The notes beneath the pieces were generated by a model that made no database searches, had not been told where the DNA came from, and saw only the letters and a list, made by a program, of their open reading frames with translations. Source: Chelativorans sp. J32 (lineage in GTDB: Bacteria; Pseudomonadota; Alphaproteobacteria; Rhizobiales; Rhizobiaceae). Taken from it: a stretch of DNA of 64,000 bases. A program made the translations under genes and the position numbers. The stretch covers positions 62,001 through 126,000 of the forward strand of contig NZ_JAEQ01000010.1 in assembly GCF_000518985.1 (NCBI RefSeq), read 5' to 3'. Shown one piece after another: positions 22,136 to 41,628 of this stretch (the stretch's first letter is position 1; each line of letters starts with the position of its first letter).

Positions 22136-22166
22136 ATCGTGCAGCCTCCAACCATTGGAAGGTCAA
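22136..22166 (-). promoter_or_regulatory. CueR-type promoter 1 (small orf and LysR)
   Basis: On the minus strand TTGACC is followed by a 19-bp spacer with the dyad CCTTCCAATGGTTGGAGG and a weak -10 CACGAT. The transcription start would fall about 30 bp before the 58-aa gene. The pattern matches the seven other CueR-type sites in this window. Confidence 0.7.
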
Positions 22167-22309
22167 GACCGAAATTGCTTAAGTCCCGGTCTTAACCGCA
22201 GCGTGAAGATTGCCGTGTCGGCGATAAGTGCTGCTGCCTGCTTCAACGAACGCATTAGCGGCCCGCTCTTCAGCGGTACAGGCATCACATCGCCAAGAAG
22301 CCTTGTTTG

Positions 22310-22624
22310 TCAGTCATCAAAGTGCTCCTCGTCGATGTGGGTTGCCATGTCGATCAGCATGTCGCTCACGTGACTGTCTGCCACTTCGTAGAAAACCTGC
22401 TTTGACCGACGCTCCCCCCTGACGAGCCGTGCACCTCTGAGCAGGCGTAAATGGTGGCTAACCAGTGTCTGCGACAGTCCCAGGCTCTCAACAATGTCGC
22501 CGACGGACTTTGGACCCGGCAGGCAAAAGAGCAGAATTCTCAGCCGTGTAGGATCGCCCAGCAGGCGAAAAGTCTCTGCCAGTACGGTTACGTCGTTCTG
22601 CGACAGGGACGGGGCTTGCTTCAA
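22310..22624 (-). CDS. ArsR/SmtB-family zinc/cobalt-type repressor
   Basis: A 104-residue winged-helix repressor. It lacks the alpha-3 cysteine site but has the complete alpha-5 metal motif D83-x-H85-x10-H96-x2-E99 (DSHVSDMLIDMATHIDEEH), as in SmtB and CzrA. The recognition helix is SQTLVSHHLRLL. It overlaps the stop of the CDF exporter by 4 bp, so both are co-transcribed, and it probably represses from the 50-bp palindrome in front of that operon. Confidence 0.9.
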   Translation of the reverse strand: MKQAPSLSQNDVTVLAETFRLLGDPTRLRILLFCLPGPKSVGDIVESLGLSQTLVSHHLRLLRGARLVRGERRSKQVFYEVADSHVSDMLIDMATHIDEEHFDD

Positions 22625-23679
22625 CGTTCATGCTCCTGCTTGCTGTGGACATGCTCAGGCCCATGGTTGTGGTGATGCCCATCATGGTCGTGTCGATCCC
22701 CATGCGCGTGCCCCGTCAAGGCAGAGGCTTGCGACAGGCTGCACGCGTCCGCATCGTCATTCCAGTCGATGGCGATGGTCGGATGTTCGATCTTAAACTG
22801 TGACTTCAACTCACGCTCGACCGCGCGCATCACCGAGCGAGCATCGACATCGGCTTTCGGCCGCACATGTAGGGTGGCCAAGGTCCGCCCGGACGTGATC
22901 GACCAGACATGGATGTGGCTCACCGACGCCACGCCAGCGATGTTCTCGACAAGATGGCGTTCGATCTTCTCGGGCGTCGCGTTATCTGGCGCACCTTCAA
23001 GCAGGATATGTATCGACTTGCCGAGGAGATTCCACGCGGCGCGCAGGATCAGCAGGGAGACAAACACCGAGAGGATAGGATCGATCAGCGTCCAACCCGT
23101 GTACATGATCACGATGGCGGCTGAAACCGCTGCCACAGAGCCGAGGAGGTCGCCCAACACATGAAGGATGGCACCCTTGATGTTCACGTGCTCGGTATCT
23201 CCGCGCGTCAGAATCCAGAACACGAGAATATTGATGAGGAGCCCCGCAATGGCGACGCCAAGCATCGGACCCGCGAGGATAACATGCGGTTCCTGAAAGC
23301 GCTGCCAGGCTTCATAGACAATCCAGACGACGATCGCGAATAGCGTGATTGCGTTGATAAAACCGGCAAGGACCTCGAAACGCAGATAGCCAAAGGTCCG
23401 CTTGGAGTCTGCCGCCCGCCGTCCGAACCGAAAGGCGGCATAAGCTAGCGCCAGCGCAGCCGCGTCGCTCAGCATATGTCCAGCGTCGGCGAGCAGCGCC
23501 AGCGATCCTGAGATCAGACCGCCGATCACCTCCACGATCATGAACGTGAGGATCAGGAAGAACGAGAGAAGGACCTTGCGCTCATTATCGCTCGTGACGG
23601 TCGGCGCATGGGAGTGATCATGGGAATGGTCATCATGAGAATGACCATGGCTGTGTGAATGGGACATTTCAGGGCTCAT
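22621..23679 (-). CDS. CDF-family zinc/cadmium/cobalt exporter
   Basis: A 352-residue cation diffusion facilitator with six membrane segments. Histidine-rich ends (HSHSHGHSHDDHSHDHSH at the N-terminus, HGDRHDHDGHHHNHG at the C-terminus) are typical of zinc exporters. Both intramembrane metal motifs are intact: HMLSD in TM2 and HVLGD in TM5. ATG 23679 abuts the operator palindrome; ATG 23667 is an alternative that leaves a longer leader. A GTG at 23697 lies inside the palindrome. Confidence 0.93.
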   Translation of the reverse strand: MSPEMSHSHSHGHSHDDHSHDHSHAPTVTSDNERKVLLSFFLILTFMIVEVIGGLISGSLALLADAGHMLSDAAALALAYAAFRFGRRAADSKRTFGYLRFEVLAGFINAITLFAIVVWIVYEAWQRFQEPHVILAGPMLGVAIAGLLINILVFWILTRGDTEHVNIKGAILHVLGDLLGSVAAVSAAIVIMYTGWTLIDPILSVFVSLLILRAAWNLLGKSIHILLEGAPDNATPEKIERHLVENIAGVASVSHIHVWSITSGRTLATLHVRPKADVDARSVMRAVERELKSQFKIEHPTIAIDWNDDADACSLSQASALTGHAHGDRHDHDGHHHNHGPEHVHSKQEHER

Positions 23680-23680
23680 G

Positions 23681-23730
23681 CGGTTGACATACAACACATG
23701 AATATGTGTTCATATGTTGTATGTCAACCG
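23681..23730. promoter_or_regulatory. 50-bp near-perfect palindrome, promoter-operator of the CDF/SmtB operon
   Basis: The arms CGGTTGACATACAACA and TGTTGTATGTCAACCG are perfect 16-bp inverted repeats. Inside them ATGAA...TTCAT forms an SmtB-like core. On the minus strand a -35 TTGACA sits in one arm, with TATTCA 17 bp downstream. Repressor binding would occlude the whole promoter. Confidence 0.8.
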
Positions 23731-23768
23731 CTCCGCTTGCAATTCGTCCAAGCAGGCGTCTGCGCAAG

Positions 23769-23808
23769 GCCTACGGCGGGTAGCGCGCCACGGAACCGCG
23801 CCGTAGGC
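23769..23808. terminator. Possible hairpin terminator after the MFS gene
   Basis: Inverted 10-bp arms GCCTACGGCG and CGCCGTAGGC with a 20-nt loop lie between two minus-strand operons. No clear U-run follows, so termination is uncertain. Confidence 0.35.
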
Positions 23809-23823
23809 TTAATGACTATCCTG

Positions 23824-25329
23824 TCAATGGACAGCGATCGTGCCGGTAGAAACCTGTCCCCTCTTAGCGTTGACCAGAACCGCGGCAATGACTGCGGCAA
23901 TCACGAGGGCAGCTCCAGCTCCCGCAAGCGCAAGACCATAACCGTGGATCAGCGCATCGCTGGCCGATCTCACTAGCCCGGCGTCACCCGTCTCCCGCCC
24001 GCGATAGAGGGCGGCGAGTGCACCCGGCAACCTGCCAGCCGTGGCAGAGACTGCGATGGTCGAAAGGACGGCCAGCCCCAAGGCGACGCCGATCTGTTGC
24101 GAGGCGTTGAAGAGCGCCGATGCGATGCCCGTCTCCTGTGTCTGCACGCCTTTGACGGCGGTCAGCGCCAGTGCAATCACGGCCCCCACGAAACCGAAAG
24201 CGGTGAGGAAGGCCGCGGGCATGAAGTGCCACATATAGTTGAGTTCCTGTCCGATATTGGCGAGCCAGAACAAGGCAGCGCCGCCTATTAGTGCGGCGGG
24301 CGCTGCCACCTCGCGCGGCGCAAACCGCGTGACAAGCTTGGAACTGACAATGGCCCCAACGATAATACCCGCACCGAATGGCAGGAACGCCAGCGCGGTC
24401 ATGATCGGGCTGTAGCCGAGGATGTGCTGCAAATAGAGCGTCAGCAGATAGATCATCCCCATCGGACCGAAGCCCAGCAGCAGCATGGCGAGGTAGGAAC
24501 CCGCCCGGTTGCGCTCCTTGAACAGACGTGGCGGCAGAAGCGGGTCTTTGCTGCGCGACTGCAAGATCAGGAACAGCGGCAGCAGGATCGCGGCGGTAGC
24601 GAACGAGGCGAGCGTGATGCTGTCCGTCCAGCCATGTTCGCCGCCACGGGTGATCCCATAGACGAGCGCGGCCATGCCCACAATGCTGGTGAGCGCGCCG
24701 GTGAAGTCCGGGCGGCCTTTGTGCAGTTCCGCCTCGACAAGCGTTCTTGACCCCGCCAGCACAGCCAGGCCGATGGGAATGTTGATGAAGAAGGCCCAGC
24801 GCCAGCCCAGCAGCCCCGTCAGCAGCCCGCCGAGGATCAGCCCGGCGATGATACCAAGGCCGGACATTGCTCCGTAAACGGCCATCGCTCCGTTGCGCGC
24901 CTTGCCTTCGGGGAAGGTCGTCGCGATCAAGGCAAGAGCATTGGGGGCCGTCAGCGCCGCACCCACGCCCTGTAGACCGCGTGACGCGATTATGCTCATG
25001 CTGTCCTGGGCAAGCCCGACGAACAGGGAAGCAATGGTGAAGATCGCCATGCCCGCCTGCAGCATGCGCCGCCGGCCATAGATATCGCCCAACCTGCCGC
25101 CGAACAGCAGCAGTCCACCAAAGGCGAGAACGTAGGCGTTGATCACCCAAGGCAGGCTCGCAGCCGACATTCCGAGTTCGTTCTGGAGTGTCGGCAGGGC
25201 GATGTTCGCGATGGTATCGTCAAGCACCACCATGAGCTGAGCCGTCGCAATGACGGCCAGCGGCAATGTCGTGCTTGCAGGTGACGAAGCCACCGGAGGC
25301 TTCGGCGTTTGGGGGGAGAGCGTAGACAT
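23824..25329 (-). CDS. DHA2-family MFS efflux pump (14 TMS)
   Basis: A 501-residue drug:H+ antiporter of the EmrB/QacA type. The N-terminal motif LDDTIANIALPTLQ, the loop motif GGRLGDIYGRRRML and the motif-C-like GLGIIAGLILGG are present, with about 14 hydrophobic segments. Family members export dyes, biocides and drugs. Unusually, a CueR-type promoter stands 45 bp upstream, placing it among copper-responsive genes. Its substrate is unknown; a copper chelate or copper-linked toxicant is speculation. Confidence 0.9.
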   Translation of the reverse strand: MSTLSPQTPKPPVASSPASTTLPLAVIATAQLMVVLDDTIANIALPTLQNELGMSAASLPWVINAYVLAFGGLLLFGGRLGDIYGRRRMLQAGMAIFTIASLFVGLAQDSMSIIASRGLQGVGAALTAPNALALIATTFPEGKARNGAMAVYGAMSGLGIIAGLILGGLLTGLLGWRWAFFINIPIGLAVLAGSRTLVEAELHKGRPDFTGALTSIVGMAALVYGITRGGEHGWTDSITLASFATAAILLPLFLILQSRSKDPLLPPRLFKERNRAGSYLAMLLLGFGPMGMIYLLTLYLQHILGYSPIMTALAFLPFGAGIIVGAIVSSKLVTRFAPREVAAPAALIGGAALFWLANIGQELNYMWHFMPAAFLTAFGFVGAVIALALTAVKGVQTQETGIASALFNASQQIGVALGLAVLSTIAVSATAGRLPGALAALYRGRETGDAGLVRSASDALIHGYGLALAGAGAALVIAAVIAAVLVNAKRGQVSTGTIAVH

Positions 25330-25373
25330 CCGGAGTTCCTGTTATTTTTCATGGGGCGTTCAGATGTCGCAGA

Positions 25374-25404
25374 CCCCTAATCCTTCCAACGGCTGGAAGG
25401 TCAA
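25374..25404 (-). promoter_or_regulatory. CueR-type promoter 2 (MFS pump)
   Basis: Minus-strand TTGACC, a 19-bp spacer with the dyad CCTTCCA/TGGAAGG, and a poor -10 (TAGGGG) lie 45 bp before the MFS start codon. Confidence 0.7.
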
Positions 25405-25601
25405 GAACAAATTGCTTCCCAAATCCGCTGAAACTTGATCTATAAGCCGATGAGCTGCACATCGCCCACATTTTGCATGCGAGAAGCGCCGATCAGGCAA
25501 TGGCGATCAGTGGTCTAGCTGGCCATGACATGACCAGATTCGTCGTTCACGGACGGGCCGAGCGGCCTGGCGCGGCAGGAACGGGCGGCGGTCAGACGGT
25601 C

Positions 25602-25640
25602 CTAGCAGCAAATTCGCCGGAACAAGGTTCGTCTTGACAT
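25602..25640 (-). pseudogene. Truncated frame behind an orphan CueR promoter
   Basis: A strong AGGAAGGA ribosome site precedes an ATG that encodes only MSRRTLFRRICC before a TAG. The start resembles a twin-arginine leader, so this may be the stump of a deleted exported copper protein. A short regulatory peptide is the alternative. An in-frame ATG at 25658 adds six residues. Confidence 0.4.
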
Positions 25641-25665
25641 GCTTCCTTCCTGATCCATTGCACCC

Positions 25666-25696
25666 CAGATGGGGCTTCCAACAATGGGAAGGTCAA
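25666..25696 (-). promoter_or_regulatory. CueR-type promoter 3 (no intact gene behind it)
   Basis: Minus-strand TTGACC, a 19-bp spacer with GGAAGC/CTTCCCA half-sites, and -10 CATCTG. The -10 differs by one base from that of copA (CATCTT). Transcription would run into the truncated frame at 25640. Confidence 0.65.
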
Positions 25697-25735
25697 GGCC
25701 GCCTTGGCCGCGATATCATTTTTCCTCGTTGACCC

Positions 25736-25766
25736 TTGACCTTGCCAACGTGGCAAGGACCAGATT
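25736..25766 (+). promoter_or_regulatory. CueR-type promoter 4 (copZ)
   Basis: Plus-strand TTGACC, a 19-bp spacer containing the dyad CCTTGCCA/TGGCAAGG, and -10 CAGATT lie 33 bp before the copZ start codon. The half-sites use GCCA rather than CCA, a variant seen in other MerR copper promoters. Confidence 0.7.
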
Positions 25767-25798
25767 TGTCCGTGAACGCCCAACAGAGGAGAGTTCGC

Positions 25799-26014
25799 AT
25801 GTTCCGATTCACTGCTCCCGACATGACTTGCGGCGGCTGCGCGCGCCGGGTCAACAACGCGCTTCTGAGCGTCGATCCGGCGGCTGATGTCACCACCAAT
25901 CCACCCACCCGCGAAGTGACGGTCACCACGAAGGTGGACGAGCAGGTACTCCCCGCCGCCTTAACCGAGGCAGGCTATCCGGCCGAACGCAAGGACCAGT
26001 CGGCGGCCGCGTGA
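25799..26014 (+). CDS. copZ: CopZ-like copper chaperone (HMA domain)
   Basis: A 71-residue single heavy-metal-associated domain. The Cu(I) site is MTCGGC near residues 9-14. The rest follows the beta-alpha-beta-beta-alpha-beta pattern and ends in an alanine-rich tail. ATG 25799 has AGAGGAGAG upstream. It should carry Cu(I) to an exporting ATPase. It resembles the second copZ at 40678, and both have their own CueR-type promoter. Confidence 0.9.
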   Translation: MFRFTAPDMTCGGCARRVNNALLSVDPAADVTTNPPTREVTVTTKVDEQVLPAALTEAGYPAERKDQSAAA

Positions 26015-26095
26015 GGCTTCTGGGCGCGGTGGCGGCTCGGCTGCGCCCCTTCGTCTCCGCCATTCTCAACAGCTCGACTCGACGTGCAAGTACAC

Positions 26096-26599: not shown

Positions 26600-26667
26600 C
26601 GACGCCAATAGCTATTCTCAATTCTCAAGTCTGGCGCCAGAGCTGTTTCGCTCCGGCGCCGCGCTGC

Positions 26668-28221
26668 TTACTGGTTCGATCCGGCGTAGACTATGCCGTT
26701 CGGGCGATCGCCGACCGGCACGGTCTTGAGCACTTCCTGGCTCGCCACGTCGATGATCGAAACGCTGTCATCGGCAATGTTCGTTACGAACACGAATGCC
26801 CCGTCAGCCGATGCCGAGACGCCGTGGGCGCCGCTCCCGGTGGTGATCGTCTCGATCACGTTTCCGGACTCAATCTCGATCACGGAGACCGTGTCGTTCG
26901 GTTCCGCCTCGGTGCCCTGATTGGCCACATAGACGTAGGCTCCATCCGGGGTGGCGAACATCTGGATCGGGTTCGGCCCGACGTCGATCCTGTTCGTCAC
27001 CTCGCGGGATGCGGTGTCGATGACGGCCACCCGGTTCTCGTCTCGAAGAGAGACGTAGACCTGATCGCCCGAGGGCGTGAACCCGACCTGAACAGGCGCT
27101 GCGCCCACCGGAATGCGCGCAACCTCGGTCAGCTCCTGCGTGTCGATGACGGAGACCGAGCCGTCCTCGACATTGGCCACATAGAGCTCGCTCTCATCCG
27201 GGTTGAGGCGCAGCCCGTGCGGATAGGCTCCGGTCGTGATGTGCTCGATCACCGAAGCCGCTGCGAGATCAACGACCGCAATCTCGTTCCCGCCGGACAG
27301 CGAAACATAGGCGCGGCCGCTACGATCGGCGACGACATGCGCCGGATGCGCACCGACTTCTACAGTGCCGACGGGTTGTGACAGCTGCTGCGGATCGAGC
27401 ACCACCAGAAGCCCGTTGCCGGCATCGGCATGTCCCTGGTCATCCGATCCGTGAGCGTGATCGGAGGCAGCGCTCCCGACGGCGAGCAACAGCCTCCCGT
27501 CCGGTGTCCGATCGACATTGTGCGGTGAGACTCCGATCTGCACCGTCTCGACCGAACCCGTGCCGAGTTCGATGGCGCTGATCGAATTGTCGCCCTCGTT
27601 GGCGGAGTACACGGTTCCGCCTGTCTCGACCAAGCCGGCAGGCTGCTGGCCGGCATTCCTGTCCAGCCACGCCTGCATTTCGGCGATCTCACGTTCCTGT
27701 GCTTCAATGATCTGAGACGCCCACTCTCTTGTCTGCGGGTCATCTCCGTATCGCTGCACGATCTTCGCCATGTCGACCGCACCCTGATGGTGCGGGATCA
27801 TGCCCCGGATGAAAGCGACGTCCGGGTCCTCGGCCATGACGCCCTCCATCATCGGACCGTGCATCTCCTCCATCGCATCGACATAGGCCTTGGTGAAGTC
27901 GGCGACATCGGCGTCGGCTGGAGCCGACTCTCCGCCTTGGGGAGCGGCCATCCCACCGTGCATCATGCCGCCCTGCATCATCTGCTGCATGGCGTCCATG
28001 CACGCTTGGGGCATGGTCTCCATCATGGCCCGGCATTCCTTCGGCATGTCCTGCATCGAAGGCATCTGTCCTGAAGGGGACATGGAGGCAGGGGCCCGTT
28101 CCTCCTGGGCCTGCGGCGTCTGAGGGTGATGGGCGTCATGCTCTGCCTGCTGCGCCAGAGCAGCGCCGGAGACTCCCATCAAGAGACTGGCAGAAAGGGC
28201 AACTATTGTTCGGTACGTCAT
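26668..28221 (-). CDS. Exported DUF305 - YVTN beta-propeller fusion protein
   Basis: A 517-residue secreted protein. A signal peptide (cleavage near residue 23, ALA/QQ) precedes a Met/His-rich linker with CRAMMETMPQACMDAMQQMM. A DUF305 domain follows with [19 protein letters not shown] near residue 140. From about residue 205 to the end there are YVTN/40-residue beta-propeller repeats (VYSANEGDNSISAIEL, LYVANVEDGSVSVIDT, VFVTNIADDSVSIIDV). DUF305 proteins are helical, ferritin-like and occur in copper islands. Joining one to a propeller suggests a periplasmic copper sensor, sink or scaffold, but no activity can be assigned. Confidence 0.88.
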   Translation of the reverse strand: MTYRTIVALSASLLMGVSGAALAQQAEHDAHHPQTPQAQEERAPASMSPSGQMPSMQDMPKECRAMMETMPQACMDAMQQMMQGGMMHGGMAAPQGGESAPADADVADFTKAYVDAMEEMHGPMMEGVMAEDPDVAFIRGMIPHHQGAVDMAKIVQRYGDDPQTREWASQIIEAQEREIAEMQAWLDRNAGQQPAGLVETGGTVYSANEGDNSISAIELGTGSVETVQIGVSPHNVDRTPDGRLLLAVGSAASDHAHGSDDQGHADAGNGLLVVLDPQQLSQPVGTVEVGAHPAHVVADRSGRAYVSLSGGNEIAVVDLAAASVIEHITTGAYPHGLRLNPDESELYVANVEDGSVSVIDTQELTEVARIPVGAAPVQVGFTPSGDQVYVSLRDENRVAVIDTASREVTNRIDVGPNPIQMFATPDGAYVYVANQGTEAEPNDTVSVIEIESGNVIETITTGSGAHGVSASADGAFVFVTNIADDSVSIIDVASQEVLKTVPVGDRPNGIVYAGSNQ

Positions 28222-28928: not shown

Positions 28929-29417
28929 TCAGATCTCCCGCGCGCCGCGGAAACGCCCGAAGGTTTTCTGGACGGAAGGGCCGAACAGGAACACCTCGTA
29001 TGGCTCGGGGACCACGCCGGGAAAGTCCATGCCGGGGGAGCCGGCGGGCATTCCGGGAACCGCAAGCCCTGTCGCGAGCGGGCGCGCGGCCAGGAGGCGG
29101 CGAAGCGCGGCGGCCGGCACATGTCCTTCGATGACATAGCCGTCCACTTCGGCCGTATGGCAGGAGTACAACGCCGCCGGGACGCCGAGCCGCTGCTTGA
29201 GGCTTTCGACCTCGCTCGATTCCACGACGCTCACCGGGAAGCCGGCCGCCTCGATATGCTCGACCCATGCGCCGCAGCACCCGCAATTCGTATCCTTGGT
29301 GACGGTCACCAGAGGCAGTCCTGCCGAGCGAACCGTTCCCGCCGTTGAGAGCAGGAGGGGGAACGCGGTGGCGCTGGCGAGGAAGGAGCGCCTGCTGATC
29401 ATATGGATGGTTTGCAT
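28929..29417 (-). CDS. DUF411 metal-binding protein
   Basis: A 162-residue exported protein with a Tat-type leader (ISRRSFLASA). The DUF411 core carries TKDTNCGCCGAWVEHIEAAGF, YSCHTAEVDGYVIEGHVP, a GLAVPGMPAGSPGM loop and an FLFGPS segment. DUF411 proteins are small periplasmic copper-binding proteins often coded beside cop/cus genes. ATG 29417 has GGAGG 7 nt upstream; ATG 29402 directly before the RR motif lacks one. Confidence 0.88.
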   Translation of the reverse strand: MQTIHMISRRSFLASATAFPLLLSTAGTVRSAGLPLVTVTKDTNCGCCGAWVEHIEAAGFPVSVVESSEVESLKQRLGVPAALYSCHTAEVDGYVIEGHVPAAALRRLLAARPLATGLAVPGMPAGSPGMDFPGVVPEPYEVFLFGPSVQKTFGRFRGAREI

Positions 29418-29717: not shown

Positions 29718-32105
29718 CTACAATCTCGTGACCCGCAGCCGGGAGGCGTTCGCGATGACGCTCACCGACGACAGCGCCATGGCGGCGGCCGCGATGATCG
29801 GCGACAGCAGGATGTCGAAGAACGGGTAGAGCACCCCGGCCGCCACCGGCACGCCGAGCGCGTTGTAAATGAAGGCGAAGAATAGGTTCTGGCGGATGTT
29901 GCGCATGACAGCCTCCGAGAGCCGGCGCGCGCGGACGATGCCCGTGAGATCGCCCTTGAGCAATGTGACGCCTGCGCTTTCCATTGCCACATCGGTACCG
30001 GTGCCCATGGCGATGCCCACATCGGCCGCCGCCAGCGCCGGTGCGTCGTTCACGCCGTCGCCTGCCATCGCCACCACCTCGCCTGCCGCCTTGTGACGCT
30101 GCACGACCGCGCTTTTCTGGTCGGGCAGGACCTCGGCCTCGACCTCGTCGATGCCGAGCCGGCGGGCGACCGCCTTGGCCGTGGTCCAGTTATCACCCGT
30201 AAGCATGACAACGCGGATTCCCTGCGCCTTCAGCGCGGCAAGCGCCTCGGGCGTCGAGGGCTTGACCGGATCGGCGATGGCGAAGATGGCAGCGATGCGG
30301 TTGTCCACTCCCATGAAGATCGCGGTTGCCCCGTCCTCGCGCAGCCGGTCGGCCTCATCCGCCAGTGGGGCGACATCAACGCCTTGCTCGGCTAGGAACT
30401 TGGCATTTCCAAGGGGAATGCGCTTGCCTTCGACCGTGCCGTAGGCGCCTTTGCCGGTCGGCGAGTCGAAATCCGCGACCGGTGCGGTCACGATCCCCCG
30501 CTCCTCGGCAGCGCGAACGATGGCCAGCGCCAGCGGATGCTCGCTGGCCCGCTCCACGCTGGCGGCAAGCCGCAAAGCCTCGTCCTCGGTGAACCCCGGC
30601 GCCGGCACGATTGCGGTGACGGCGGGTCGTCCCTCGGTCAGCGTACCGGTCTTGTCGACTATGATGGTATCGACCTTCTCCATATGCTCCAGCGCCTCGG
30701 CGTTCTTGATCAGCACGCCCGCCTGTGCGCCACGCCCGACGCCGACCATGATCGACATCGGCGTTGCCAGCCCGAGCGCACAGGGACAGGCGATGATCAG
30801 CACGGAAACCGCCGCGATCAGACCGAAGGAGAAGCGCGGCTCCGGACCCCAGATCGACCAGGTTATGAAGGCAAGGATTGCGACCACGATCACCGCCGGC
30901 ACGAACCAGCCCGACACCTGATCGGCGAGGCGCTGGATCGGCGCGCGACTACGCTGCGCCTCGGCGACGAGCTGGACGATCTGCGACAGCATGGTGTCGC
31001 GGCCGACCTTCTTCGCCTCGATCACCAGCGCGCCGGACTGGTTCATGGTGCCGCCGATGGCGGTGGCGCCGACCTCCTTGGTGACCGGCATCGACTCGCC
31101 AGTCACCATCGATTCATCGACGGCGCTGCGTCCTTCCAGAACTTCGCCATCGACCGGCACCTTCTCGCCGGGACGCACCCGCAGGCGGTCGCCGACCCGA
31201 ACGGTGTCGAGTTGAACCTCCTCCTCGGTGCCGTCGTCACGAATGATCCGGGCGGTCTTGGGGGCGAGGTCGAGCAGCGCCCGGATCGCGCCGCTGGTGC
31301 TCTCGCGCGCCCGCAATTCCAACACCTGCCCGAGCAGCACGAGCACAGTGATGACCGCGGCCGCCTCGAAATAGACCGCGACCGAGCCGTCATGCTGGCG
31401 GAATGCATCTGGGAAGATGCCCGGCGCCAGCGTGGCGACGACGCTGTATATCCACGCCGTTCCCGTGCCCATGGCGATCAGTGTAAACATGTTGAGGCTG
31501 CGGTTGACGAGCGACTGCCAGCCACGCTGGAAGAACGGCCAGCCCGCCCAGAGAACGACCGGCGTTGCGAGGATCAGTTGCAGCCAGTTCGAGACCTGCT
31601 GCCCGATGGCATGAGTCAGCCCGAACAGATGCCCGCCCATCTCGAGAATGAACACCGGGATCGCCAGAACGAGGCCGATCCAGAAGCGGCGTGTCATGTC
31701 GATCAGTTCGACATTGGGCTCGGCCTCAAGGCTGACCAGTACCGGCTCCAGCGCCATGCCGCAGATCGGGCATGATCCGGGGCCGTCCTGCCGGATCTCA
31801 GGATGCATCGGGCAGGTATAGACCGTCCCCTCGAGAATCGGTACTACCTCCGCCGCCGCCGGATCGAGATAGCTTTCGGGCTCGGCCAGGAACTTCGCGC
31901 GGCACCCGGCCGAGCAGAAATAATAGGGCCGGCCCGCATGCTCGGCCTTGTGCTGGGCCGTGTGGGGATCGACAATCATGCCGCAGACCGGGTCCTTGAC
32001 CTTGTGCGTGTCGTCCTGCGCGACGGCCCCGTGATCATGCGCATGACCTTGGGCGGAATGAGCGTGACTCTGATTCTGGTGATCGTGTTCGGTCTTGCTG
32101 GCCAT
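29718..32105 (-). CDS. Copper-type P1B ATPase with YHS and CPMHP metal-binding domains
   Basis: A 795-residue ATPase without a classical HMA domain. The N-terminus is histidine-rich. It is followed by a YHS domain ([18 protein letters not shown]) and a heavy-metal-binding domain ([19 protein letters not shown]). The core has [26 protein letters not shown] and [10 protein letters not shown]. This architecture is typical of CopB/SilP-like Cu or Ag exporters. ATG 32105 has AGGAGG 7 nt upstream. A dedicated CueR-type promoter lies 45 bp before it. Confidence 0.92.
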
Positions 32106-32149
32106 TTTCACGCCTCCTCGGCGTCTTATCCTAAGCTTGCTCTTCGCCT

Positions 32150-32180
32150 ATTCTGCGCCTTCCAACCGTTGGAAGGTCAA
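32150..32180 (-). promoter_or_regulatory. CueR-type promoter 5 (YHS-type Cu ATPase)
   Basis: Minus-strand TTGACC, a 19-bp spacer including part of the perfect dyad CCTTCCAAC/GTTGGAAGG (32158-32176), and -10 CAGAAT. This is the most symmetrical of the eight sites. Confidence 0.8.
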
Positions 32181-33245: not shown

Positions 33246-34754
33246 CTATGCGCTGACCGCGAATTCGGTCATCATGCCTGTTTCAAGATGCGGCATGTGA
33301 TGGCAATGCAGCATCCAGCGCGCGGCTTCTCCGGCATCGAGTGCCACGTCGACCATCGACATCGGCGGCACATACACCGTGTCCCGCTGCGCGCCCGTGA
33401 CCGCACGTCCATTCAGCCCGACGACCTGGAACACATGGCCGTGGAGATGCATCGGGTGACCCATCATCGACATATTGTGGAAGGACAGCACGATCCGTTC
33501 GCCGCGCCTCGCGGTAACCGGGCGATGCTGGCCCCAGACGGCACCGTTGATCGTCCACACATAGGGCTGCATCGAGCCGCCCAGCATCACCATGTGGCTG
33601 CGGTCCACCGGCCGCTCCGGCAAGGATTCGGAAGCGATCAGGCGCGTCTCCTGCGCAAGGTCGGTGTCAAAGGCCGGTGCTTCGGTCTCTGCCAAAGCAT
33701 CAATGTGCCGTATCTCGGCGCCCGGAGTGGCAAGGATCAGACCGGTGCGCTCCCGCGCGCCTTCTCGCAGCGCGAGGATCGGCCAGGCACCGCCCTCCGA
33801 AGGCAGGTCGATCTCAAGGTCGAGCCGTTGGCCCATGGCCAGACCGAACCTCGTGCCGGAGAGCGGCTGAACGGCATGGCCATCAACCGCGACGAGCCGG
33901 GCCTGCGCTTCGCCGGTGTCGAGCCAGAACACCGTCGCCGCAGCGGCGTTGATGACCCGCAGGCGGATACGCCCGCCGCGCTCGACCTGCACCACTTCCG
34001 GGTCCGAGAGCGTACGATCATTGGCAAGATAGGCGTCCCAGTCGTAGTCGTTGAGGTCCATCGTCATGCCGTCCATGGTCCCCATTCCCATCATGCCGCC
34101 CTTGGCGCCGTGATCCATGCCAGTCATCGGCATGTTTCCCATCGCGCCGTGGTTCATACCTGACATTCCGCCCGTGCCTGTGCCTGTGCCGCTTCCGTGA
34201 TTGCCCGTGGCACCATGGCCGGACTTGATCTCCGCCATCACCTCTTCGGGTGCCTTGAATGAGAAATCATGCAGAAACAGTACCACCTCCTGCCGGTCAG
34301 CGGCGACATCCTCGGCGCTGCGCACGATCAGGGGCGCGGCCAGAAGGCGCATCTCGTGCAGCGGAACATGCGCGTGCATCCAATAGGTGCCGGGCAGCGG
34401 TGCGAAGTCATAGGCGCGAGTCTCGCCGGGGGCGAGCATCGGCAAGGGCATGTCGGGCACGCCATCCTGCGCATTGGGCGGGATCTGGCCGTGCCAGTGG
34501 ATCAGTGTGGCGGTGTCGAGTTCGTTCGTTAGATCCACCCGGAACGGCATGCCGGGATCGAGTGTCAGGCCCTGTCCGGATGGCCCGGCAAGGCCCCAGA
34601 CAGTGGCGGCGCGTCCGTCGATGTCGAGCGTGCGGCTGGCGGCGCGAAGCGATAGCGGCGTGGCGTCCTGCGCTGCCGCCATCCGGGGCACCTGAGCGTA
34701 GGCCAGCATGGCCGCGCCAGCGGCGAGAAAGCCGCGTCGTGAAAGGGTATTCAT
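33246..34754 (-). CDS. Multicopper oxidase, CopA/CueO type
   Basis: A 502-residue periplasmic oxidase with a Tat leader (LSRRGFLAAG). The four copper motifs are visible: HWHG (H86, H88), WMHAHV, HPMHLHGH and HCHHMPHLETGM at the C-terminus. A Met/Gly/His-rich insert (GGMSGMNHGAMGNMP region) sits mid-chain, as in cuprous oxidases. It should oxidise Cu(I) to less toxic Cu(II). A small exported protein precedes it on the same strand. Confidence 0.94.
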   Translation of the reverse strand: MNTLSRRGFLAAGAAMLAYAQVPRMAAAQDATPLSLRAASRTLDIDGRAATVWGLAGPSGQGLTLDPGMPFRVDLTNELDTATLIHWHGQIPPNAQDGVPDMPLPMLAPGETRAYDFAPLPGTYWMHAHVPLHEMRLLAAPLIVRSAEDVAADRQEVVLFLHDFSFKAPEEVMAEIKSGHGATGNHGSGTGTGTGGMSGMNHGAMGNMPMTGMDHGAKGGMMGMGTMDGMTMDLNDYDWDAYLANDRTLSDPEVVQVERGGRIRLRVINAAAATVFWLDTGEAQARLVAVDGHAVQPLSGTRFGLAMGQRLDLEIDLPSEGGAWPILALREGARERTGLILATPGAEIRHIDALAETEAPAFDTDLAQETRLIASESLPERPVDRSHMVMLGGSMQPYVWTINGAVWGQHRPVTARRGERIVLSFHNMSMMGHPMHLHGHVFQVVGLNGRAVTGAQRDTVYVPPMSMVDVALDAGEAARWMLHCHHMPHLETGMMTEFAVSA

Positions 34755-35870: not shown

Positions 35871-36077
35871 CTAGTGATGCCGCTGACATTTTTTCGGAGG
35901 CACAGGAAGTTCTCCGATAGCCAGATAAGCTTGAGACAACGGCTTGTGCGAAGCTGCGACGCCGAGCCCTCGCGCATCAATCAGTTCAAGAGCCTGCAAT
36001 AGCTTCTCGGCAACTTCCATGTCGCCGTCCGAACATGCCCGTTTGAACAGGTGCAGGATTTCGCCGGCAAGCGTCAT
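35871..36077 (-). CDS. Small soluble protein downstream of cueR, unknown
   Basis: A 68-residue, mainly helical protein (GEILHLFKRACSDGDMEVAEKLLQALELID) with a His-ending C-terminus (KKCQRHH). Not recognised. It begins 2 bp after the cueR stop, so it is co-transcribed with cueR as the last gene of the copA operon. Confidence 0.6.
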   Translation of the reverse strand: MTLAGEILHLFKRACSDGDMEVAEKLLQALELIDARGLGVAASHKPLSQAYLAIGELPVPPKKCQRHH

Positions 36078-36079
36078 GG

Positions 36080-36595
36080 CTATTGCTCCCTGGCACCGTG
36101 ACCGCTTCTTTCCGCCTTCGCCGACACGACGGGCCTCGTGTGCTCGAACCTGTTCCCTGTCGCGCCGGAACGATCGCGGGTGTGTGTGGGGCTGGTCTCA
36201 GGGTCATCAGTCGTCGCCAACTCATCGATGATCGGGCAGTCCGGCCGGGCATTGCCCCGGCAGTTCTCGGCAAGGTGCTTGAGCGTCATGCTCATCTCCC
36301 TGAGTTCACGCGCCTTCCGTTCAAGTTCTTCGACATGCTCGAGCGCCACGCGCTTGACGTCCGCGCTCGCCCGGTCTCGGTCTCGCCAGAGCGCAAGCAG
36401 TTCCGTCATTTTCTCGACCGAGAAACCGAGATCGCGCGCACGCCTGATAAAACGCAACGTATGCACGTCCTTATCGGAGTAATCCCGGTATCCGCTATCC
36501 GTCCGCGACGCTTCCGCGATCAATCCGATCGATTCGTAGTAGCGGATCATCTTCGCCGAGACGCCTGATGCCGCCGCTGCTTTACCGATGTTCAT
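36080..36595 (-). CDS. cueR: CueR, copper-responsive MerR-family activator
   Basis: A 171-residue regulator. The HTH is IGKAAAASGVSAKMIRYYE, followed by YRDYSDKDVHTLRFIRRARDLGFS. The Cu(I) ligands C112 and C120 (NCRGNARPDC) fall at the same positions as in E. coli CueR. Beyond residue 125 there is a basic, low-complexity tail of about 45 residues that most CueR proteins lack. It is the likely regulator of the eight CueR-type promoters in the window and of its own operon through copA. Confidence 0.92.
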   Translation of the reverse strand: MNIGKAAAASGVSAKMIRYYESIGLIAEASRTDSGYRDYSDKDVHTLRFIRRARDLGFSVEKMTELLALWRDRDRASADVKRVALEHVEELERKARELREMSMTLKHLAENCRGNARPDCPIIDELATTDDPETSPTHTRDRSGATGNRFEHTRPVVSAKAERSGHGAREQ

Positions 36596-36615
36596 CGCTG
36601 GTTCCTTTCTTCGAC

Positions 36616-37632
36616 TTATGTAGGCGCTTCTTCGGGCGTAAAAAACACGTCCGCATGTATGTCCTCGCCGCGCAAGCCCAGTTCGCGAAGCATGATGCCG
36701 GAAGCATCGATCATGGCAGGCGGTCCGGCCATATATGCCTTCCAGCCATTGAGGTCCTGCACGTCACTCACGATCGCATCCGTTACCAGGCCGGTTCGGA
36801 AGTGATCGGATCGGCTCACCTCCGAAAGCACGGGCATGAAGGTGAGGTTGTCGTAGGTGCTCGCCAGAAGACTGAAATGATCGACGAGATAGAGATCACG
36901 TTCCGTCCGTGCCCCGAAATAGAGATGGATCGGCTGCCGCAGGCCGCTTGCCAGCGCCGTTTCGACAATCGACTTGATCGGCGCCAGTCCCGATCCGCCG
37001 GCGACCGCCAGAATTGGACCCGTATGCTGTTCGCGCAGAAACGAACTGCCGAGCGGCCCGCGAACCGAAACCTCGTCGCCGACCTTGAGTGACCTGGCGA
37101 CGTGTTCGCTCGTCGCTCCACCGGGCACATGCCTGATGTGGAATTCGAGATGGTCTCGACCCGGCTGGTTCGCCATCGAATAGTCGCGCGCCGGAACGCC
37201 ATCGAACGTCACCTGCGCATACTGGCCCGCCTTGAACGCGACGGCCTCTCCCGTTTCGACCTCCAGCCTGATTTGCCGGATGTCGTGGGTTGCGTCATCG
37301 ATCGCGACAACCCGCGTGCGATAGGTGCGGACGGGAAGATCAAGCTGTTCTTCCTCCTCATCGAGCCATGCGACCGTGCAATCCGTGAGCGGCTGCGCGC
37401 GGCATGCAAGGATCAGTCCCTGAGACCGCTCATCGTCCGTCAGGGCAAAGCGCGTGTGCGGCAGAAGATCGACCTCGCCGCTGACCAGTCGGGACTTGCA
37501 CGAGCCGCAGCGGCCCGAACGGCATCCATGAGGATATGCGATCCCTTCTTCTAGCGCTCTCTCCAGAATGGTTCGGCCATCCGGCACGTCGATGATGCGC
37601 CCCGCCTGCCGAATTTCGATTTGTCTTCCCAT
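36616..37632 (-). CDS. Ferredoxin-NAD(P)H reductase-type electron transfer protein
   Basis: A 338-residue fusion of an N-terminal plant-type [2Fe-2S] ferredoxin (C37, C42, C45, C77) with an FAD domain (RDYSMAN) and an NAD(P)H domain (VAGGSGLAPIKS). The layout is that of reductase components of class IB oxygenases and methane-monooxygenase-like systems. Within the copA-grx-cueR operon it has no oxygenase partner. It might reduce copper-stressed thiols or metals, which is inference only. Confidence 0.88.
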   Translation of the reverse strand: MGRQIEIRQAGRIIDVPDGRTILERALEEGIAYPHGCRSGRCGSCKSRLVSGEVDLLPHTRFALTDDERSQGLILACRAQPLTDCTVAWLDEEEEQLDLPVRTYRTRVVAIDDATHDIRQIRLEVETGEAVAFKAGQYAQVTFDGVPARDYSMANQPGRDHLEFHIRHVPGGATSEHVARSLKVGDEVSVRGPLGSSFLREQHTGPILAVAGGSGLAPIKSIVETALASGLRQPIHLYFGARTERDLYLVDHFSLLASTYDNLTFMPVLSEVSRSDHFRTGLVTDAIVSDVQDLNGWKAYMAGPPAMIDASGIMLRELGLRGEDIHADVFFTPEEAPT

Positions 37633-37643
37633 GACAATCTCCC

Positions 37644-37907
37644 TCAGGCGGCGCCCGATGACAGGGCTTCCGCCAGACGAGGTTTCTGGTCAGCAAAGGT
37701 GCCATAGAAGACCTGTTCGTTGACAATCGTGATCGGGGCAACGCGCACGCCGGTCCGCGCTTTCGCCTCTTCGGCGATCTGCGGATCTGACAGGTCACGC
37801 TCTTCGAATGGGACACCCTGGTCAGCAAGCCATCGCTTGACGGCATGGCAATCGGGGCAGGTTGGCGTGGTATACAGCACCACTGACGGAGTTCCCGTAT
37901 TGGTCAT
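37644..37907 (-). CDS. Glutaredoxin-family protein
   Basis: An 87-residue thioredoxin-fold protein with a CPDC active site (C17, C20) in TTPTCPDCHAVKRWL, and VAPITIVNEQVFYGTF as the cis-proline loop. NrdH/glutaredoxin-like. It lies between copA and the reductase gene, so an electron path from reductase to glutaredoxin is plausible. Confidence 0.88.
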   Translation of the reverse strand: MTNTGTPSVVLYTTPTCPDCHAVKRWLADQGVPFEERDLSDPQIAEEAKARTGVRVAPITIVNEQVFYGTFADQKPRLAEALSSGAA

Positions 37908-37959
37908 CGCTTCATTCCTTTACATGTGGCGAGCCTGCCGAAGCAGGCTCGCCTGTTTC

Positions 37960-40518
37960 TCATTCCGCAGGCGCAAGTTCAGGCTGACGGGGCCGGACTG
38001 CGCCGCTTTCCGCCTGCGCGGGCGCGCGGAAGGTCTTGAGCCTCAGCGCGTTGCCGAGGACGAAGACGCTCGACAGGGCCATCGCGCCGGCGGCAAAGAC
38101 CGGCGACAGCAGGATGCCGTAGGCCGGATAGAGCAGACCGGCGGCAACGGGGATCAGAGCCGTGTTGTAGGCAAAGGCCCAGAACAGGTTCTGCCGGATG
38201 TTGCCGATCGTCGCCTTGGACAGTGCGATCGCGTTCGGCACGCCTTGCAGGCTGCCCGACATCAGCACCACGTCGGCTGCCTCGATGGCAATGTCCGTAC
38301 CCGTGCCGATGGCAAGGCCCACATCCGCTTCGGCCAGCGCCGGAGCGTCGTTGATGCCATCGCCGACGAAAGCGACCTTGCCATGCTGGGCTTTGAGGCG
38401 GCGTACAGCGTCGACCTTGCCGTCCGGCAGCACTTCCGCCACCACCTCGTCGATCCCCAGCCGAGCCGCGATGGCTTTTGCCGTGCGGGCATTGTCGCCG
38501 GTGATCATCGCGACCTTGAGGCCGAGATCGTGCAGCGCCTTGATCGCTGCGGGCGTCGTCTCCTTGATCGGATCGGCCACGGCGATAATCGCCGCGAGCT
38601 TGCCGTCGATGGCGGCATAGAGCGGTGACTTGCCCTCATTGCCGAGACGTTCGGCAATCTTGGCGAAGGCAGCTACGTCGTGGCCGAGGTCTGCCATGTA
38701 GCGGTCAGCGCCAATCTCGACTTGGCTGCCGCCGACCATGGCCTTGACGCCGAAACCCGTCACCGACTCGAAGTCCGACACGGCCGGCAGCGGGATGTCC
38801 TCCCCGGCGGCCGCATCCACGATCGCACGGGCGATCGGATGCTCCGACTTCGCTTCGACGGCCGCAACCAAACCGAGGACATTTGCCCGGTTGAATCCGA
38901 TGGCCAGTTCCAGATCGGTGAGCGCAGGCTTGCCTTCGGTCAGTGTGCCCGTCTTGTCGACGGCGACGACCCTGGCGTCCTTGAGCAGCTGCAACGCTTC
39001 GCCCTTGCGGAAGAGCACGCCCAGTTCCGCACCGCGGCCCGTGCCCACCATGATCGAGGTCGGCGTCGCCAGACCCATGGCGCAGGGGCAGGCGATGATC
39101 AGGACGGCGACGGCATTGACCAGAGCGAAGGTCAGCGCGGGCGACGGGCCGAACCACATCCATGCGGCGAAGGTGAGGATCGCTACCGCAAACACCGCCG
39201 GCACAAAATACATCGTGACCTTGTCGACCAGCGCCTGGATCGGTAGCTTTGAGCCTTGCGCTTCCTCGACCATGCGGATGATCTGCGACAGCACCGTGTT
39301 GCCGCCGACCGCCGTCGCACGGATGGCAAAGGCGCCCTTCTGGTTCACCGTTCCGGCCACGACCTCGCTGCCATTCGTTTTGGACACCGGGATCGGTTCG
39401 CCCGTGATCATCGATTCGTCGACATAGCTCTGGCCTTCGATGACCTCGCCATCCACCGGGATGCGATCGCCGGGACGAACCTCGACGATGTCTCCCGACA
39501 GCACGGCGTCGATCGGCAGTTCGATCGTCTTGCCGTCCCTGCGCACGCGCGCCATCTTGGCCTGAAGGCCGACGAGACGCTTGATCGCCTCGGAGGTGCG
39601 TCCCTTGGCACGAGCCTCCAGCAAACGGCCGAGCAGGATCAGCGTCACGATGACGGCGGCAGCCTCGAAATAGACGTTCACCGTTCCGGCAGGCAGGAAA
39701 CCGGGCGCGAAGGTCGCGACCAGCGAATAGCCATAGGCGGCGAGCGTGCCGACCGCGACCAGCGAGTTCATGTCGGGGGCGAGCCGCCACAGGGCGGGCA
39801 GCCCCTTGTCGTAAAAGCGGATACCCGGAACGAACAGGACGATGGTCGTCAACACGAACTGGATATACCAGTTCGTCTGCATGCCGATGGTTGAAGCGAT
39901 CAGGTCATGCATGCCCGGAATGACGTGTGAGCCCATCTCCAGGATGAAGACAGGCACCGTCAGCACCGCCGCGATGGTGAAATCGCGGGTCAGTTCACGA
40001 CGTTCCGCTTCCTTCTTTTCGGTACGATCATCCGTCTCGCCCTGGCTGGTTCCTGCCGCCGTGGCGATCACCCTGGCGTCGTATCCCGCGCCCTCGATGG
40101 CAGCCACCAAAGCCGCCGCATCGGCGCTGCCCTGGATCGTGGCCTTCTCGGTCGCGAGGTTGACGACGGCATTAGTGACGCCGGGTACGGCCTTGAGCGC
40201 CTTTTCGACGCGTCCCACGCAGGATGCGCAGGTCATGCCCTCGATCGCCACTTCAAGCGAGGCTGCCGTCGGCGCGGAGAAGCTTGCCGCAACCTCATAG
40301 CCTACATCCTCCACGGCCTTGACGAGAGTGGCAGGATCGACCGCAGCGTTCGTGGTGATGCTCGCCTTTTCGGTCGCCAGATTGACGACCGCATCGGCGA
40401 CGCCAGGCACGGCCTTGAGGGCTCTTTCGACACGACCTACGCAGGATGCACAGGTCATCCCCTCAATGGGGAGTGATATCGTTCCAGACAGGTCTGTTGC
40501 TCGAACGGGGGCATTCAT
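37960..40518 (-). CDS. copA: Copper-exporting P1B ATPase CopA
   Basis: An 852-residue Cu(I) ATPase with two N-terminal HMA domains (GMTCASC at C23/C26 and C97/C100) that are close copies of each other. The core has the Cu(I) motif [28 protein letters not shown] and [13 protein letters not shown] 40518 follows AGGAGG. It exports Cu(I) to the periplasm and heads the operon copA-grx-reductase-cueR-orf68. Confidence 0.95.
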
Positions 40519-40558
40519 AGCCGCCTCCTTTTTTGTCCCGAAATTCCAGTTCGGACAG

Positions 40559-40589
40559 AAGATGGGGTTTCCAACCATGGGAAGGTCAA
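40559..40589 (-). promoter_or_regulatory. CueR-type promoter 6 (copA operon)
   Basis: Minus-strand TTGACC, a 19-bp spacer with CTTCCCATGGTTGGAA, and -10 CATCTT lie 40 bp before the copA start codon. Confidence 0.85.
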
Positions 40590-40614
40590 GAGGACAAACA
40601 GAGAAAAATCGCCA

Positions 40615-40645
40615 TTGACCTTCCCATGGTTGGAAGCCCCACATT
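40615..40645 (+). promoter_or_regulatory. CueR-type promoter 7 (second copZ)
   Basis: Plus-strand TTGACC, a 19-bp spacer almost identical to that of copA, and -10 CACATT. It is back-to-back with the copA promoter, 25 bp apart, so one CueR pool can drive both directions. Confidence 0.85.
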
Positions 40646-40677
40646 TGGCAACGTGAGACCAAACAAGGAGAATTCTC

Positions 40678-40872
40678 ATGGAACTCAGAATCGAGAACAT
40701 GACCTGCGGTGGCTGCGCAAAATCCGTCACCAAGGCGATCCAGTCAGTCGACCCCACCGCCAGGGTGGAGACGAATCCGGAGGCGCGGGCGGTCAAGGTT
40801 GAGACGACTGCTAGTGCGGGGGCTATTCAGCAGGTTCTCGAAGAAGCCGGCTATCCTGCAACTGTAAACTGA
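40678..40872 (+). CDS. copZ: CopZ-like copper chaperone (HMA domain)
   Basis: A 64-residue HMA domain with [11 protein letters not shown] (Cu(I) cysteines in MTCGGC). It is close to the copZ at 25799 in the first 35 residues (GGCA, SVDP, TNP). Divergent from copA and followed within 15 bp by a DUF305 gene. Confidence 0.92.
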
Positions 40873-40886
40873 CCAGGAGCTGTGTC

Positions 40887-41291
40887 ATGAACAAGCTCAC
40901 CCCGATCTTCATTGCCGGCGCGTTCGTCATTGCTGGCGGACTCGCCTACGCACAGTCTCAGATGGACGAGCAAGGCCAAGGAGCGACCATGAATCACGGC
41001 GAACATGCCGGACACGGCGCCACCGCGCCTTCGGATAACCCTGTCATTCGCGCCTACCAGCAAGTCAACGACAAGATGCATGCCGATATGGCGATCGAGT
41101 TTACGGGCGATGCGGATGAGGATTTCATGCGCGGCATGATCCCCCATCACCAGGGCGCCATCGACATGGCTCGTGTCGTTCTCGAACACGGATCAGACCC
41201 CGAGGTGCGAGCACTTGCTGAGGAGGTCATCTCCGCCCAGGAGGCGGAAATCGCGCAGATGCAGGAATGGCTGGCCAAGCGCAGCCAATGA
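40887..41291 (+). CDS. Periplasmic DUF305 protein
   Basis: A 134-residue exported protein with a signal peptide ([16 protein letters not shown]), a short Met/His linker and one DUF305 domain with [24 protein letters not shown]. The helical HHQG and Met-rich motifs are probable metal ligands. It is co-transcribed with copZ and shares its domain with the fusion protein at 26668 and the membrane protein at 42835. Confidence 0.88.
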
Positions 41292-41298
41292 GACGGTG

Positions 41299-41324
41299 AA
41301 GGGCGGATCAATTCCGCCCTTTTC
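41299..41324 (+). terminator. Rho-independent terminator after copZ-DUF305
   Basis: Nine-bp arms AAGGGCGGA and TCCGCCCTT around a 5-nt loop are followed by a short T-run (TTTTCC), 8 bp after the DUF305 stop. Confidence 0.8.
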
Positions 41325-41395
41325 CTTTGCCGGTCATCAGCACGAGGACGGTTGCCACCGCGAAGGCGACAAGCGCCCCATCGGTGCGCCTTCGG

Positions 41396-41572
41396 TCAAG
41401 GCAAACGGCTCGCGTGGACGCTGAACCACGTCTGGAACCCTGTTTCGAAAATGGTGATGCGTCCGCGGGCCTCGACCAGGGATAACAGCGTATCGGCCAG
41501 ATCCCTGACCGCAAGCAACCCGACCCGAAGCTCTCCAACTGCGGCGATCAGATTCTCGGCTCTGATCTTCAT
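41396..41572 (-). CDS. Small CueR-controlled protein (58 aa), unknown
   Basis: A mostly helical, cysteine-free protein starting MKIRAENLIAAVGELRVGLL and ending HASRLP. I do not recognise it. Strong gene evidence: AAGGAG sits 6 nt before ATG 41572, and a near-consensus CueR-type promoter ends 25 bp upstream with the same -10 (CATCTT) as copA. An ATG at 41578 directly abuts the ribosome site and is unlikely. Confidence 0.65.
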   Translation of the reverse strand: MKIRAENLIAAVGELRVGLLAVRDLADTLLSLVEARGRITIFETGFQTWFSVHASRLP

Positions 41573-41597
41573 GTCCATCTCCTTCGTTTGGCCCTCC

Positions 41598-41628
41598 AAG
41601 ATGAGGGTTCCAACCATTGGAAGGTCAA
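41598..41628 (-). promoter_or_regulatory. CueR-type promoter 8 (small unknown gene)
   Basis: Minus-strand TTGACC, a 19-bp spacer with CTTCCAATGGTTGGAA, and -10 CATCTT, identical to copA at -35 and -10. Confidence 0.85.

Follow-up and report, generated by a model that had tools for sequence, protein, structure and literature searches.

As far as the accessible parts of the published sources go, the CueR regulator of Escherichia coli serves two genes, copA and cueO (PMC12833586), and that of Pseudomonas aeruginosa a regulon of at least five genes or operons: copZ1, copZ2, copA1, mexPQ-opmE and PA3515-3519 (PMC7922089, PMC12833586). Here we describe a copper island of ~20 kb in a 64,000-nucleotide stretch of the Chelativorans sp. 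J32 genome (contig NZ_JAEQ01000010.1, positions 62,001 to 126,000 of the forward strand; hereafter ‘the window’), in which eight CueR-type promoters, between positions 22136 and 41628, accompany a resident cueR gene. The original prediction, made from the letters of the window, took these to form a large CueR copper regulon, where two or three promoters would be usual; the latter figure is about right, the available text of one survey giving 324 sites for the 238 CueRs that have them, or 1.36 each (PMC5045206). The CueR-type nature of the promoters stands—by their 19-bp spacing, dyad, copper genes and resident CueR, and by the recurrence of six of them in relatives—but the notion of a single CueR does not. 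We put at roughly 0.83 the probability that the locus is a copper-resistance island that is mobile and carries a CueR regulon of its own, a reading drawn from sequence comparison; networks of this kind, and their general mechanism, are already known, this one being unusually dense.

Like the P. aeruginosa system, in so far as the sources cover it, the island brings together CueR, two copZ genes, copA, genes of unassigned function and an efflux pump whose role in copper export is not obvious. It differs in several respects: P. aeruginosa has one CueR, whereas the island’s genome has two; a mobile element here packs eight sites into 20 kb; its pump is of the MFS (DHA2-type) rather than the RND family; a YHS Cu-ATPase, DUF305 and DUF411 proteins and a LysR-family gene are added; and the island cueR sits within the copA gene run. 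With E. coli it shares the CueR residues C112, C120 and S77, together with the TTGACC element and the 19-bp spacer. The HmrR/actP system, with its CTGG-class operator (ACCTTCCAG-(3)-CTGGAAGG), likewise has the regulator downstream of the Cu-ATPase gene and nearly the same dyad, judging from the part of its description available (PMC1526738).

A pattern search of the window recovers all eight promoters at the coordinates originally assigned to them, each as a 31-bp unit of TTGACC, 19 bp and a hexamer. On the forward strand, which has two sites, the coordinate used is where TTGACC starts (25736 and 40615; sites 4 and 7); on the reverse strand, which has six, it is where the −10 hexamer ends (22136, 25374, 25666, 32150, 40559 and 41598; sites 1, 2, 3, 5, 6 and 8). 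At no more than one mismatch the pattern TTGACCTTSCNNNNNNKGSAA matches the window at exactly these eight places, against a mean of 0.05 and a maximum of 1 in 100 dinucleotide shuffles of the same DNA. A scan of the whole genome, proposed along with the prediction, was run with a related pattern, TTGACCTTSCMANNGTKGSAA; across 4.7 Mb this gives 10 matches at up to one mismatch—the eight, plus a divergent pair on contig C41 (C41:33539-/33585+)—and zero further matches at two mismatches, with 9 at three mismatches as compared to 8 for a reversed control pattern.

The 19-bp spacer after TTGACC holds at all eight sites, each of which has the dinucleotide YA at that distance. Their −10 hexamers (CACGAT, TAGGGG, CATCTG, CAGATT, CAGAAT, CATCTT, CACATT and CATCTT, for sites 1 to 8) are mostly CANNNT-like, that is, of a YA type; a canonical TANNNT element was considered and rejected, TTGACC-N17-21-TANNNT being without a match in the window. 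In a wider set of 75 distinct sites, for whose selection only the first 21 bases counted and many of which are orthologous to one another and hence not independent, YA lies exactly 19 bp away in every case (75/75), and YANNNT does so in 37, with at most one of the 75 showing it at any other spacer length from 15 to 23. The ‘GGAAGG-type’ dyad of the prediction fared less evenly: a dyad is indeed present in the spacer, but the full GGAAGG right arm is found at just two of the eight (sites 2 and 5). GGAA occurs in the right arm of six, with GGAG at site 1 and GCAA at site 4; the half-sites of the latter are GCC/GGC, and at site 5 the arm pairs match 9/9.

So high a number of sites is uncommon though not unique. 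Counted at zero mismatches, a setting under which site 1 and one member of the C41 pair go uncounted, the window’s genome has 8 sites, and the next highest among the 16 genomes of the genus have 6, 3 and 3, with none in two. Amongst 394 genomes of the family, at least eight are reached in 6 and at least seven in 11 (the window’s genome included), and 57 have none (counted by eye). Seven sites concentrated within ~20 kb are seen in 3 of 10 genomes with at least seven (G165 left out), these being the window’s own, G233 and G363, which share the island. A separate cluster, differently built around another copA-cueR and YHS-ATPase group on contig C17 of G116 (L088, L089), has four CueR-type sites in ~19 kb, all of the ‘T’ operator class described below.

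The island appears to belong to a mobile element: transfer genes (TrbB, TrbE, TrbJ, TrbL and TrbF; 11373–18628) adjoin it, and a near-identical copy is present in another genus, where 34 kb of the window (14684–48684) recur at 99.96–99.97% identity on a 4.18-Mb contig of G363. G233 matches the window in its sites and their spacing, and islands of the same descent are also recorded for Aureimonas altamirensis (L057, which corresponds to the contig of G233, and L058), Falsochrobactrum shanghaiense (L059) and Pseudochelatococcus contaminans (L060). Diverged versions occur in G011, from the window’s own genus, in Aquamicrobium zhengzhouense (L061/L052) and in Telmatospirillum sp. J64-1 (L062); over the parts compared, gene order and promoter places are alike in both groups. 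The G011 island, at 85–91% DNA identity, also covers a portion of the transfer region and shows six of the eight sites; it lacks the 25.5–28.9-kb stretch with sites 3 and 4, such that its DUF411 gene directly follows that of the MFS pump. This absence implies that the window’s island grew, or that of G011 shrank, by modules carrying their own promoters. Outside the copper genes, the element holds other metal resistances, with an ACR3 arsenite exporter and a Zn/Cd/Pb-type ATPase accompanied by a CadR/ZntR-like regulator (882–9429).

The six promoters shared with the diverged islands (sites 1, 2, 5, 6, 7 and 8) are found at 13/13 matching places in G011, L052 and L062. Over these comparisons 374 of 403 bases are identical in the 31-bp promoters versus 765 of 970 in their flanks, the former figure being biased upward by the use of the pattern to locate the sites in the relatives. 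A clear excess is seen for site 1 against G011 (L043 7370-7390; promoter 30/31, flanks 40/74), for site 5 (28/31 versus 58/74 and, in a second comparison, 31/31 versus 55/74) and for site 8 against G011 (30/31 versus 43/74), and a slight one for site 2 (27/31 versus 59/74). By location, site 5 is kept in G011, in L062 and on Paracoccus versutus pTAV1, there as the copB promoter; sites 6 and 8 in G011, G336 (L052) and L062; and site 7 in G011, L052 (one mismatch to the pattern) and L062.

What these promoters lead into is best taken by position, starting with those nearest to familiar copper genes. Site 6 (40559..40589, reverse strand) heads a run of five genes on one strand, separated by gaps of ~50 bases or less as judged from the open reading frame (ORF) coordinates: copA, a Cu-exporting P-type ATPase with two HMA domains by Pfam (37960..40518; TIGR01511, 596 bits); a small glutaredoxin (37644..37907; Pfam Glutaredoxin); a 2Fe-2S/FAD/NAD oxidoreductase (36616..37632; Pfam Fer2, FAD_binding_6 and NAD_binding_1); cueR itself (36080..36595; TIGR02044 equivalog), for which this arrangement predicts autoregulation; and a 68-aa protein of unassigned function (35871..36077), without a Pfam match and 82–96% identical in G011, L052 and L062. 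Divergent to it, site 7 (40615..40645, forward strand) precedes copZ2, a copper chaperone (40678..40872; Pfam HMA), and a DUF305 protein (40887..41291; Pfam DUF305), both on the forward strand. Site 5 (32150..32180, reverse) is the promoter of a copB-like Cu-translocating P-type ATPase with YHS and HMBD domains (29718..32111, reverse; Pfam; TIGR01511, 612 bits), downstream of which lies a DUF411 protein (28929..29417, reverse; Pfam DUF411).

Sites 3 (25666..25696, reverse) and 4 (25736..25766, forward) form a second divergent pair, of which one half has lost its gene. Site 4 precedes copZ1, a copper chaperone (25799..26014, forward; Pfam HMA), as does its homologue in G165. The homologue of site 3 in that genome drives a copA gene divergent to copZ1, and a 17-base run after its spacer is identical to that of the window, where just a 12-codon open frame (25602..25640, reverse) stands at the place of the copA start. 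We take this to be the promoter ‘with no intact gene’ of the original prediction: it belongs to copA in a divergent copA/copZ pair from which that gene is gone. Beyond copZ1 is a single protein that joins a DUF305 domain to a YVTN/YncE-like beta-propeller (26668–28221, reverse strand).

Site 2 (25374..25404, reverse) lies upstream of a gene for a DHA2/EmrB-like MFS efflux pump (23824..25329, reverse; Pfam MFS_1), whose best NCBIfam match, TIGR00711, falls slightly under the cut-off (224.7 versus 230.2 bits). The site also precedes the MFS homologue in G011, on Marinobacter plasmid pMAD49a (82% identical) and on P. versutus pBEN (71%). We saw no CueR-controlled MFS exporter described in the literature searched, of which parts were accessible, so that absence from print is not thereby established. 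Between this gene and site 1 are an ArsR-type regulator and a CDF zinc-type exporter (22310–23697, reverse strand), probably an inserted module since the pair is missing from this place in G011 and a similar one, at ~71% identity, is found on many plasmids.

Site 1 (22136..22166, reverse) is followed by a 58-aa ORF of unassigned function (21920..22096, reverse), the stop of which overlaps the start of a gene for a LysR-family regulator in the sequence TAATG (20973..21920, reverse; Pfam LysR_substrate and HTH_1; 87.6% identical in G011), although a later start for lysR is possible. We rejected the idea that site 1 is a promoter without a gene, as G011 has at this place a 94-aa ORF and lysR with the identical stop/start overlap. 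The 58-aa ORF has no Pfam match, and the G011 ORF a sub-threshold one to DUF4389 alone (E 0.046); neither the G011 protein nor that of site 8 has an NCBIfam match or an accepted Pfam match.

Behind site 8 (41598..41628, reverse) is a small gene that is frameshifted in the window: its first part reads as 58 aa from MKIRAEN (41396..41572, reverse), or 60 aa from an upstream ATG, and the remainder continues in another frame (41311..41469, reverse), with C45:103311-103469 matching residues 35–87 of an intact relative. An intact 87-aa ORF is present in the diverged islands (G011, L052 and L062), and the same frameshifted 60-aa reading in G233, G363, L058, L059 and L060; as five other records of the island share it, the frameshift is not due to a sequencing error in a single assembly. 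The protein, for which a C-terminal membrane helix is predicted by eye, is present in 4 of the 394 family genomes (the window’s own, G233, G336 and G363). We considered the short 58/60-aa reading as the true gene and rejected it, given that the 87-aa frame is open in 3/3 relatives, that in L062 a stop interrupts the short one, and that at either end of the 87-aa frame most changes are silent. Silent and replacing changes in the 87-aa frame number 22/16 in the first 35 codons, 13/19 in the middle and 11/6 after codon 60, as compared to 8/27 and 2/33, 3/27 and 9/20, and 0/17 and 0/13 in the other two frames over the same parts; in favour of the short reading, the middle part is better in the other frame in one of the three pairs (5 silent, 4 replacing). 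Divergent to site 8 lies a gene for a CsoR/RcnR-type metal-sensing repressor (41739–42026, forward strand; Pfam Trns_repr_metal, with a RicR match below cut-off), such that a copper repressor may sit beside CueR sites.

The gene set originally listed is thus borne out by Pfam and NCBIfam for copA, the two copZ genes, the YHS Cu-ATPase and the MFS pump; its two small genes also exist, but one overlaps lysR and the other is frameshifted. Genes for copper export or chaperoning stand directly behind four promoters (copA, the YHS ATPase, copZ1 and copZ2), with other genes or none at sites 1, 2, 3 and 8. Allowing for the loss of copA at site 3 and the frameshift at site 8, some six promoters lead to intact recognisable genes and a seventh, site 1, to a small ORF and LysR.

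Two further loci may bear on copper control. In both G233 and G363 (L055 3685-4516, L056 6930-7762), a CueR-type site directly precedes a homologue, 75% identical, of the window’s glutaredoxin-MauE gene (42045–42812), linking that gene family to CueR. A two-component sensor/regulator pair (48556–50567, reverse strand), QseBC/PmrAB- and heavy-metal-like with all matches under NCBIfam cut-offs, is a candidate controller of genes without a dyad, such as that for the multicopper oxidase. The same part of the window also encodes a single protein with an Lgt-like membrane part and a TlpA/AhpC-like thioredoxin domain (43470–44270, reverse strand).

Could some of the eight sites be relics or decoys, which bind CueR without a useful product and perhaps titrate it, or add to transcription of the MFS gene? 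For sites 1, 3 and 8 we regard this as a possibility to be taken seriously, if one we do not favour. Site 3 is without its gene, the site-8 gene is frameshifted here as well as in five other records of the island, and the site-1 ORF is shorter than its G011 counterpart; against this, site 1 differs from its G011 counterpart at a single base of 31 and has lysR behind it, and site 8 is kept, with an intact ORF, in three diverged relatives.

Turning to the regulators, the cueR gene at 36080–36595 (reverse strand) was correctly predicted to encode the ligands C112 and C120; both are kept, along with S77, in an alignment to E. coli CueR, and the protein passes the CueR equivalog cut-off (180.1 versus 147.4 bits). 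The prediction coupled this one gene to its eight sites; the sites hold up, but the genome has two CueRs and ten strong operators, so the island CueR need not be their sole reader. Contig C41 holds a second copper locus (L024 5915-10255) with a CueR of its own, copA, copZ and a DUF305 gene, where two CueR-type sites stand divergently. The second CueR (L024 6459-6908; 149 aa; 176.5 bits against the same cut-off of 147.4; C112/C120 present) adjoins copA, copZ-DUF305 and these two extra sites, which are of the same operator class as those of the island. MerR-domain matches in the genome number 10, of which two carry the CueR cysteine pair and seven were read as not CueR-like (L023 lying outside those read).

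The operators provide a further link to their regulator. Sites can be divided by the inner base before the right half-site, which is either C (CTGG, HmrR-like) or T. The CueR nearest to a T-class site has Met16 in 20/20 cases, and that nearest to a C-class site Thr16 in 11/11, over 56 stretches and with kinship ignored; L095 provides one further Met16/T-class pair, outside the 20/20 count. All eight window sites have T at the inner position (8/8), and both CueRs share the SGVSAKMIRYYE helix with Met16 (that of the island also having Tyr19; E. coli CueR has alanine at residue 16 in the alignment), placing the island outside the CTGG class of HmrR. The inner bases are accordingly mostly MA...GT, in contrast to the AG...CT of HmrR/actP, with its Thr16 CueRs. 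In the accessible text of PMC5045206, A-M and T-M pairs are over-represented for CueR, linking protein position 15, in our reading residue 16 here, to site positions 8 and 11. That the inner operator bases fit the recognition helix of the resident Met16 CueRs supports CueR as the reader; it does not separate the two CueRs.

That distinction bears on a second alternative, in which the C41-encoded CueR is the equal or main reader and the island operators are common to both proteins. It is over the equivalog cut-off, has C112/C120 and the same Met16 helix, and two operators of the island’s class lie next to it at copA/copZ. The island, however, keeps cueR inside its own copA run in relatives too, and other genera also have it, which makes reliance on any one host’s CueR improbable; we consider it less likely than not that the C41 protein has this role. 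It is far less probable again that another MerR-family protein reads the promoters: the CadR/ZntR-like protein encoded at ~9.2 kb is a MerR-type metal regulator within the window, but its gene adjoins a Zn/Cd/Pb-type ATPase, and the operators fit both the published CueR/HmrR signals, as given in the available part of PMC1526738, and the Met16 CueR class. Chance matching is statistically refuted already, at 0.05 expected versus 8 present with just two further sites this strong in 4.7 Mb, and its likelihood is vanishingly small.

Saying this, several observations weigh against a mobile island with its own CueR regulon. Two sites are off-consensus (site 1 in its GGAG right arm, site 2 in its TAGGGG hexamer), although both oddities recur in G011. 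The gene for the multicopper oxidase (33246–34754, reverse strand), unlike E. coli cueO, has no CueR-type dyad directly before it. In L062 the promoters are not better kept than their surroundings at sites 6 and 7, where all is alike (30/31 versus 72/74 and 29/31 versus 70/75), and barely so at site 8 (24/31 versus 57/76); the upward bias in promoter identity adds to this. Lastly, 22 of the 56 stretches have no CueR near their sites, and the residue-16 counts take no account of ancestry.

With a mobile, self-equipped CueR regulon as the preferred reading, the switch would work in the manner of the MerR/CueR family. Apo-CueR, bound to the dyad within the over-long 19-bp spacer, would keep the promoter poorly shaped; on binding of Cu(I) at C112/C120, CueR would distort the DNA such that the −35 (TTGACC) and −10 (YAtcTt) elements align and transcription begins. 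As the genes from copA to cueR form one run behind site 6, CueR would also raise its own level. The same switch would lead to cytoplasmic capture of copper by copZ1 and copZ2, to its export by copA, the YHS ATPase and perhaps the MFS pump, and to production of the DUF305 and DUF411 proteins and of the small ORF with its LysR regulator. In all of this we infer CueR binding, copper induction, operon structure and the role of the second CueR from the DNA.

The number of sites may have arisen by the collection of modules, each with its own promoter, as the absence of the site 3/4 module from the sister island of G011 would suggest; since each module carries its own promoter, capture of a module would extend the regulon at once. 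Decay downstream would then have affected two of the eight, site 3 through loss of copA and site 8 through the frameshift. More tentatively, and with rather less than even confidence, we suggest that such a self-contained regulon works in any host, its operator class (MA...GT, with a Met16 CueR) being distinct from that of Thr16 HmrR hosts (CTGG), and that its modules bring a DHA2-type pump, LysR with a small ORF, and the 87-aa protein under copper control.

On this account a stress regulon of bacteria, when on a mobile element, can expand by taking in ready-made promoters and not by building new ones. The island would provide a compact natural set of sites—one perfect dyad, several asymmetric ones and one orphan—with which to relate the dyad to CueR affinity and promoter strength. 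Copper sensing would also gain a link to a DHA2-type pump and to a LysR regulator, and the island names for testing a small conserved gene of unassigned function.

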